Origin: Crocinitomix sp.
GTDB lineage: Bacteria > Bacteroidota > Bacteroidia > Flavobacteriales_D > Crocinitomicaceae
Reading direction: 5' to 3'
Length of the DNA: 49,003 bases
NCBI GenBank assembly: GCA_013138735.1
Contig: WTCE01000008.1
Location: 1-49,003 of the forward strand
Position numbers and translations under genes: made by a program
In this document: positions 43,021-44,315 of the stretch, in pieces
How the letters are laid out: every line of letters starts with the position of its first letter
How positions within the stretch are numbered: position 1 is the first letter of the stretch
The notes under the pieces: generated by a model
Seen by the model: only the letters and a program-made list of their open reading frames with translations
What the model was told of the DNA's origin: nothing
Databases searched by the model: none

Positions 43021-43707
43021 ATGAAATTTGGAGTAGTTACTTTTCCAGGATCCAATTGTGACCAAGATATGGTGGACACATTAGAGACAAGCCTAGGACA
43101 ACAAGTTGAGCGATTGTGGCACAAAGATCACGATTTAAAAGGTGTTGATTTTGTTGTATTACCTGGCGGGTTTTCTTTTGGTGATTATTTGCGTTCAGGC
43201 GCTATTGCTAAGTTCTCGCCAATTATGAAAGAAGTTATCGCTCATGGAGAACGTGGCGGATATGTGATGGGAGTTTGTAATGGATTTCAAATTCTTTGTG
43301 AAACACCATTGCTTGATGGTGCTTTATTGCACAATGACAATCAAAAATTTATTTGCAAAAACATCCACCTGAAAGCAAAATCTAAGTCTGCTGCTATTAC
43401 AAAAGGTTTGGATGGAGATAGAGCGTATAAAATTCCAATTGCACATGGCGAAGGAAGATTTTTTGCGCCAGAAGATACCATGAAGTCTATTTATGATAAC
43501 GATCAAGTGTTATTTCAATACTGTGATGAGGCGGGAAATATATCTAATGAATTCAATCCAAACGGATCTTTAGATAATATTGCAGGAATCACAAATAAAG
43601 GAAAAAACATATTCGGAATGATGCCGCATCCAGAACGAGCTTCTGATGAAAATTTAGGAAATACGGACGGAAAGTTATTCTTTGAATCGATTTTAGCGAA
43701 TATTTAA
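43021..43707 (+). CDS. purQ: Phosphoribosylformylglycinamidine synthase subunit PurQ
   Basis: The glutamine amidotransferase subunit of FGAM synthase, fourth step of purine synthesis. The class I GATase triad is visible: nucleophile Cys86 in MGVCNGFQIL, and His and Glu in MMPHPERASD near residues 208-210. IAHGEGRF is the typical second motif. As a separate 228-residue PurQ, it needs a small PurL and PurS elsewhere in the genome unless it duplicates a long PurL. It ends at a strong terminator. Confidence 0.97.
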   Translation: MKFGVVTFPGSNCDQDMVDTLETSLGQQVERLWHKDHDLKGVDFVVLPGGFSFGDYLRSGAIAKFSPIMKEVIAHGERGGYVMGVCNGFQILCETPLLDGALLHNDNQKFICKNIHLKAKSKSAAITKGLDGDRAYKIPIAHGEGRFFAPEDTMKSIYDNDQVLFQYCDEAGNISNEFNPNGSLDNIAGITNKGKNIFGMMPHPERASDENLGNTDGKLFFESILANI

Positions 43708-43727
43708 GATACTATATATTAGTGCTA

Positions 43728-43762
43728 CGCCTAACTGTTTTTAACGGTTAGGCGTTTTTTTT
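43728..43762 (+). terminator. Rho-independent terminator of purQ
   Basis: CGCCTAAC pairs with GTTAGGCG around an 11-base loop, followed by TTTTTTTT. It begins 21 bp after the purQ stop codon. Confidence 0.9.
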
Positions 43763-43770
43763 GCGACGCT

Positions 43771-43830
43771 ATAACTATAAAAATAATTATATAATTATAA
43801 ATATAGTTGTATAATTATAAAAATAGTTAT
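43771..43830. promoter_or_regulatory. Three abutting 20-bp palindromes, candidate BlaI operators
   Basis: Three 20-bp units lie end to end: ATAACTAT-AAAA-ATAATTAT (43771-43790), ATAATTAT-AAAT-ATAGTTGT (43791-43810) and ATAATTAT-AAAA-ATAGTTAT (43811-43830). Each is an imperfect 8-4-8 palindrome. The second and third cover the -33 to -7 region of the promoter for the BlaI/M56 genes, the expected place for an auto-repressor. Confidence 0.8.
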
Positions 43831-43837
43831 AGGTTTG
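43807..43837 (+). promoter_or_regulatory. Bacteroidota-type promoter of the BlaI/M56 operon
   Basis: TTG (43807-43809), a 20-bp spacer and TAGGTTTG (43830-43837) match the -33 TTG / -7 TAnnTTTG consensus with normal spacing. The promoter is embedded in the operator array. The start site would be near 43844, leaving a 97-base leader. Confidence 0.75.
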
Positions 43838-43940
43838 CATTGTCGACATGAATAAGTTCGGCTCATTTATCTAGATGGATTTTCTTGCGCAGGGGATGAA
43901 AAAAGGAAAAGATAAGCCGAACATTAACAATTGAGCTAAC

Positions 43941-44315
43941 ATGAAGAAAGAGTTAACAAAAGCAGAGGAACAAATAATGCATGCTATTTGGAGCGTGGAA
44001 AAGGGTTTTGCAAAGGATATTTTGGGAAAATTAAAAGAACCTAAACCAGCATACAATACCGTGCTTACAGTAATTCGCGTATTGGTGCAAAAGGGATTCG
44101 TAAAATTCAAAACCTATGGCAAATCAAATGAGTATTATCCTACAATTTCTAAGGATGAGTATTCGCTCCAAAAAGTGCAAGGGTTGAAAAAGAATTATTT
44201 CAACAATTCCAATGCTCAGTTTTTATCCTTCTTCATGAAAGAAAACAACATGAGCTTGGATGATTTAAATGAAATTATAGGAATTATAAAACAAGACGAA
44301 GATGAGTCAGTTTAG
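43941..44315 (+). CDS. BlaI/MecI/CopY-family transcriptional repressor
   Basis: A 124-residue winged-helix repressor of the BlaI/MecI family. The N-terminal part has LTKAEEQIMHAIWSVEKGFA, followed by the recognition helix region PAYNTVLTVIRVLVQKGFV and the wing FKTYGKSNEYYP. Dimerisation helices follow. In the known family, cleavage by a partner M56 protease relieves repression. Its stop codon overlaps the next gene by 14 bp. The triple palindrome upstream is its likely operator, so the operon probably represses itself. Confidence 0.95.
   Translation: MKKELTKAEEQIMHAIWSVEKGFAKDILGKLKEPKPAYNTVLTVIRVLVQKGFVKFKTYGKSNEYYPTISKDEYSLQKVQGLKKNYFNNSNAQFLSFFMKENNMSLDDLNEIIGIIKQDEDESV

Follow-up and report, generated by a model that had tools for sequence, protein, structure and literature searches.

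Genes and features of the blaI locus

The window, by which we mean the whole 49,003-base stretch analysed, encodes a BlaI-type repressor whose frame overlaps that of a downstream M56 peptidase (Table 1). The repressor scored 101.6 bits against Penicillinase_R (cut-off 22.6) and is related to MecI (E 9e-7). A copper repressor of the CopY/TcrY type was considered and rejected, as the protein reached 54.6 bits against a cut-off of 121.95 and contains no cysteine, hence no CxC metal motif. The M56 domain of its partner (PF05569, 39.9 bits, cut-off 31) is accompanied in the translation by HEKVH, which is of the HExxH type, and the C-terminal domain is TonB_C (PF03544). A BlaR1-type beta-lactam sensor was likewise set aside: M56 and HExxH are present, but TonB_C takes the place of a penicillin-binding sensor domain, which was detected in this protein neither by Pfam nor by the blaR1_generic model (17.6 bits, cut-off 400). 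Pfam scans of seven window proteins detected no beta-lactamase.

The gene pair is conserved. Of the 97 loci where the sequence reached far enough, 96 had a match to the window's M56 protein after blaI, and 94 had an open frame containing HExxH there. Searches of the window's own genome gave a single hit for M56 and two for Penicillinase_R at E ≤ 0.001. BlaI is cleaved at N101-F102 in the model described in PMC3305447; in an alignment read by eye this pair falls on S96-F97 of the window protein, and S96 is invariant across 20 aligned relatives. The alignment is compatible with proteolytic inactivation of the window repressor.

The upstream neighbour matched GATase_5 in Pfam and is named here a purQ-like amidotransferase. 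A terminator-like hairpin separates this gene from the array described below, and the array was therefore assigned to the downstream operon. The blaI leader (43838-43940) contains GTCGACA and TTGCGCAGG blocks that are kept in the congeners G003 and G005 and partly in G004, and in the window it carries an 11-nt inverted repeat (43856-43866/43912-43922).

Table 1. Features of the blaI locus in window coordinates
Feature	Position	Strand	Remarks
Intrinsic-terminator-like hairpin and T run	43727..43755	+	After the purQ-like gene, before the array
Operator unit 1, distal (predicted)	43771..43790	.	Core 43773-43788, 9/10 core positions
Operator unit 2, middle (predicted)	43791..43810	.	Core 43793-43808, 9/10; covers the -33 TTG
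-33 TTG, Bacteroidetes-type promoter	43806..43808	+	Inside unit 2; read from sequence
Operator unit 3, proximal (predicted)	43811..43830	.	Core 43813-43828, 9/10; between the -33 and -7 boxes
-7 box TAGGTTTG (TAnnTTTG)	43830..43837	+	First base is the last base of unit 3
blaI-type repressor, 124 aa	43941..44315	+	Penicillinase_R PF03965
M56 peptidase, 406 aa	44302..45522	+	HEKVH motif, C-terminal TonB_C; overlaps blaI by 14 bases

Three tandem dyads over the promoter

Upstream of blaI, positions 43771-43830 form three contiguous 20-bp imperfect palindromes with start-to-start distances of 20 and 20 bp. The arms of the successive 20-mers pair at 7/8, 6/8 and 7/8 positions, and nowhere else in the window does a triple run of 20-mers reach a sum of at least 20, or six paired positions in every member. 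The three abutting palindromes seen in the sequence-only reading were thus present as such; its 8-4-8 layout gave way to a conserved unit consisting of a 16-bp dyad, AAYTA-N6-TARTT, and a 4-bp linker. Every core differs from AACTA-N6-TAGTT at one of ten positions, in the right arm (TAATT) for unit 1 and in the left arm (AATTA) for units 2 and 3. The region is AT-rich, and single units in the window's genus reach 9/10 at best. The TACA/TGTA core of staphylococcal members is absent from the motif, whose inner six bases vary.

The DNA helix has 10.5 bp per turn. A 20-bp period is then about 1.9 turns, close to the two turns proposed earlier, and places adjacent dimers about 34 degrees apart, so that an alignment of dimers on one face of the DNA is plausible and roughly right for this pitch.

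The TTG at 43806-43808, which we take to be the -33 element of a Bacteroidetes-type promoter, is separated by 21 bases from TAGGTTTG. The proposal that units 2 and 3 lie over the promoter was borne out, with TTG in unit 2 and TAGGTTTG sharing one base with unit 3. The -7 consensus of Flavobacterium psychrophilum sigma-A is TAnnTTTG, according to the available portion of PMC9723704. A sigma-70 scan of 43400-44300, using a consensus that differs from the -33/-7 type, called three sites where 4.4 were expected, each of them on the minus strand. The -7 box of the window begins 17 bp past the start of the proximal core, and the same offset was found in 37 of the 95 unit-bearing loci described below. 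At other loci TAnnTTTG began 15 bp (10/95), 37 bp (3/95) or another distance (2/95) past the last core start; an exact match 10-40 bp past that point was not found in 43/95.

Conservation upstream of blaI in relatives

BlaI matches were present in 39 of the 59 genomes near the window's own. We scanned 110 loci (L001-L110), comprising 30 from these near genomes and 80 named loci, mostly titled Bacteroidota, which were the best 80 by BlaI similarity of at least 593 matching stretches. We removed six loci of a paralogous clade (L025-L030), the duplicates L032 and L046, and L003, L059 and L079, whose upstreams were shorter than 100 bp. Counts were made on the remaining 99 loci, and the lag and period analyses likewise used 99; these loci are phylogenetically non-independent and were thinned by the two duplicates only. 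A first scan covered 106 of the 110 loci, four having been dropped for short upstreams, with duplicates and paralogs retained.

The check on conservation upstream of relatives' blaI genes came out in favour of the array: 95 of the 99 loci carry at least one unit. Chained at exactly 20 bp, two units were found at 60 loci, three at 19, one at 16 and none at four, which gives the comparison of array length that had been proposed as a check. The four loci with no unit within 250 bp of blaI were L041, L050, L073 and L082, although at L041 a tandem pair occurs farther out, at 843 bp. BlaI/MecI dimers had been said to use usually one or two sites. The counts here, with two units at 60/99 and three at 19/99, agree with that, but Bacillus licheniformis has three operators (PMC3305447) and Clostridium thermocellum ordered double dyads (PMC8457756), so that the statement was borne out in part.

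When the period was set to any other value between 16 and 30 bp, no more than one of the 99 loci gave a three-unit chain. Two-unit chains were found at 28 bp in 24/99 and at 24 bp in 14/99, and we attribute these to internal repetition of the AT-rich half-sites. With strict, non-overlapping units (at least 9/10), 68 of 82 successive spacings were exactly 20, and in the first scan 73 of 114 were. Mononucleotide shuffles of the first-scan upstreams gave 35.5 hits per round, compared with 210 observed, and no successive pairs at 20 bp. A motif-free measure of self-identity of the upstream regions peaked at a lag of 20 (z 12.7), with lags 1, 4, 12 and 8 close behind (z 12.1, 10.9, 9.4 and 8.6). 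Where a strong unit was present (79 loci), the second-best unit lay at exactly 20 bp in 56 cases and at another distance in 11, and was missing in 12.

The triple form was seen, under tolerant scoring, in 8 of the 11 loci of the window's family (f1) with a readable upstream; within this family only the window (L001) and L007 keep three units at 9/10 or better each. Fifteen loci overall hold three or more strict units. Six of these have spacings of 20 and 20 (L001, L007, L022, L077, L085, L086), and L081 has such a run with another unit 104 bp on. Three units lie 21 and 21 bp apart in L039, a Bacteroidetes MAG. The third unit is off the 20-bp pitch in L013 (20 then 24), L052 (35 then 20) and L065 (20 then 38), and the rest have two separate pairs (L062, L101, L106) or a pair and a lone unit (L100). 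A spacing of 18 bp was found in two loci.

Second tandem arrays occur farther upstream, to about 1.1 kb, in L035, L062, L068, L081, L084, L101 and L106, and L083 has a further array 2.2 kb downstream. In the congener G005 (C281, C285; L003, L186) a three-unit array lies on one contig and blaI at the end of another; the blaI start carried by C285 runs for about nine codons before the sequence diverges, which may reflect an assembly break. Glaciecola amylolytica is a gammaproteobacterial name. The BlaI encoded in the record with that title (L031, CP034120.1) shares 77% identity with that of the window, and mislabelling and transfer are candidate accounts.

Genome-wide scans for further sites

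Base frequencies were taken from the 70 of 110 loci scoring at least 17/20 at period 20; because the loci were selected by that score, these frequencies are conditioned on the motif. A two-unit (40-bp) profile and alignment were built from 40 of the 70. The window array was the best match to this profile in its own genome (E 0.0016; 0.053 for its other strand), and no further two-unit match fell below E 0.3 among the 150 of 8870 candidates scored, a depth that could overlook single sites. Blastn with the array against the same genome gave, beyond the array itself, nothing better than E 0.024. A scan of the whole genome had been proposed as the way to the regulon; run with the two-unit profile, it found no second tandem array there. 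The second BlaI-family gene of this genome (G000:C134:49638-49952) belongs to another clade and has one weak unit just upstream (E 6.0). A tandem array was found at none of the five loci with a readable upstream in that paralogous clade (six loci in total).

In the 58 other genomes, 18 of 19 distinct sites at E ≤ 1e-3 adjoined blaI, a proportion whose weight rests on the scarcity of other sites, since many of those loci trained the profile. The nineteenth was in G044. At E ≤ 0.01, five further distinct places away from blaI were matched in relatives. At G044:C1 two units stand nearly in tandem, the second shorter by one base, and G039 has one unit and a half-site. In G057:C50, G027 and G023 the centre of the match is TAGTT-N4-AACTA, and the outer halves are degenerate. 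On these scans the array looks like a self-operator.

The genome G044, from the same order, gave 51 profile matches at E ≤ 0.5 and 61 at E ≤ 1, on both strands, compared with nine or fewer in each of the 58 others. All 16 of the stretches read (for example L170-L185) carry a single unit at 10/10; several units lie at gene ends or between genes, and those of L175, L180 and L183 lie in frames open throughout the stretch. These dispersed sites may be either a dispersed repeat or a large BlaI regulon.

A predicted self-operator and the meaning of its pitch

The sequence-only reading took the array as an operator for the downstream BlaI over its own promoter, and both its position and its conservation upstream of relatives' blaI genes point the same way; the family's habit of placing dyad sites over the repressor's own promoter is seen here on the same two grounds. 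We consider it very probable that the array is a tandem self-operator of the adjacent BlaI, providing negative autoregulation that the M56 protease would relieve. Binding, repression and proteolysis are the parts that we infer from the family. Each 20-bp unit would take one BlaI dimer, with up to three dimers abreast: the proximal between -33 and -7, the middle on -33 and the distal just upstream. Bound dimers would hold transcription of blaI and its M56-TonB_C partner low until some signal activated the M56 protease, which would then inactivate BlaI and lift repression. The strict pitch suggests either contact between neighbouring dimers or a need for them to sit on the same face of the DNA.

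How the units would act together admits two accounts, both compatible with a self-operator. In the first, which we find plausible and stop just short of favouring, BlaI would occupy independent sites without cooperativity and act by layered occlusion, the proximal dimer blocking polymerase, the middle one blocking contact with -33 and the distal one adding occupancy, and the 20-bp spacing would follow from promoter geometry. CopY offers a precedent, since its two 21-base operators showed no cooperative binding and a two-layer occlusion was proposed (available text of PMC7253601). The account also draws on the phasing of the proximal unit relative to the promoter and on some third units (L013, L052, L065) that lie off the 20-bp pitch. 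However, promoter geometry alone should not fix the distal unit, and seven of the 15 loci holding at least three strict units show a 20,20 run, with a 21,21 run in an eighth.

That same pitch of the distal unit, which the promoter alone should not constrain, favours the second account, cooperative and switch-like repression through contact between dimers. We regard it as a tentative possibility; by analogy with CopY, the nearest experimental case found, which showed none on two operators, cooperativity would be without support. In L039 both spacings have shifted together, a single case which hints that the pitch is set by the protein rather than by the promoter. Extended across Bacteroidota, the contact account would have BlaI dimers seated on a fixed 20-bp DNA ruler through dimer-dimer contacts, with the number of units (one to three) tuning the sharpness of an envelope switch, a generalisation that we also hold to be doubtful. 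If it were true, the contact surface in the L039 lineage should have changed to match.

The dimer site could instead be the other dyad, TAGTT-N4-AACTA, centred between units, and three units would then make two sites. TAGTT-GTAT-AACTA is palindromic in itself, the weak matches in G023, G027 and G057:C50 centre on this dyad, the single-unit loci L014 and L088 have an extra TAGTT on the left, and left-flanking half-sites (at least 4/5) were seen at 5 of 65 arrays, which exceeds the background of 2.2%. Yet arrays mostly open with AACTA and close with TAGTT, and right-flanking half-sites accompany 0/65. With flanking half-sites so few on the left and none on the right, the N6 dyad is the likelier unit. 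The 16 dispersed sites read in G044 are lone N6 dyads at 10/10 (L170 also has a second, shorter copy), and in a comparison made here the outer half-sites of the CopY consensus RNYKACANNTGTMRNY are compatible with the N6 geometry. The unit counts were made with the N6 motif and so bear on neither side. We judge the N4 site improbable.

That a regulator other than BlaI reads the array is highly improbable, given that in relatives all but one of the 19 distinct sites at E ≤ 1e-3 adjoin blaI, with the weight again on the scarcity of others, and that the five readable upstreams of the paralogous BlaI clade showed no tandem array. Chance palindromes in AT-rich, low-complexity sequence, which the nearly all-A/T units of the window's genus and the modest E 0.0016 of the 40-bp profile in its own genome might suggest, can be dismissed on conservation and on the shuffles, as the same dyad recurs at the same pitch before distantly related blaI genes, in many cases with 10/10 for each of the two units, and shuffled upstreams gave no successive pair at that spacing.

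Comparison with known systems

Multiple ordered BlaI operators are already known, in B. licheniformis and C. thermocellum. We found no report in the open-licence PMC literature of an AAYTA-N6-TARTT motif or a locked 20-bp pitch in Bacteroidota; the available portions of two papers on Bacteroidetes (PMC5294843, PMC5613140) mention expression of BlaI genes and not an operator. BlaI relatives of the window type are numerous, with at least 593 matching stretches, and the defined motif and pitch let anyone list the targets of such proteins. With loci of one, two and three units occurring naturally, cooperativity in the BlaI repressor family can be tested directly.

The BlaI-BlaR1 systems of B. licheniformis and Staphylococcus aureus, as described in the portion of PMC3305447 available to us, share with the window a dimeric repressor, several operators (OP1-OP3 in B. 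licheniformis) and a membrane protease partner. They form a divergon with a beta-lactamase and a penicillin receptor, whereas the window's partner has TonB_C and gave no sensor in our scans, and the scissile pair N101-F102 of the known model corresponds to S96-F97 here.

CopY/CopR belong to a homologous repressor family with two 21-base repeat operators over the promoter, and their outer half-site RNYKA is compatible with the AACTA of the window (PMC7253601, in the part available). The inner ACA/TGT bases of the CopY operator, however, are not conserved in the window-type motif, and the cysteine-free window protein differs from these repressors in having no CxC metal motif.

Parallels in operator layout come from BlaI_0696 and BlaI_1845 of C. 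thermocellum, whose sites were defined by DAP-seq and EMSA (PMC8457756, on which, as far as available, this comparison draws). Those operators have two dyads with half-sites five nucleotides apart, and an abutting triple array with a 20-bp pitch was not found in the available description. Like the window array, they consist of multiple ordered dyads, there as inverted-repeat pairs for four protomers, and their half-sites GTCTAT/GACTAT resemble the AACTA(T) seen here. The two systems are also alike in their very small regulons, which in C. thermocellum include the repressors' own operons, with BlaR1 genes among the operon members.
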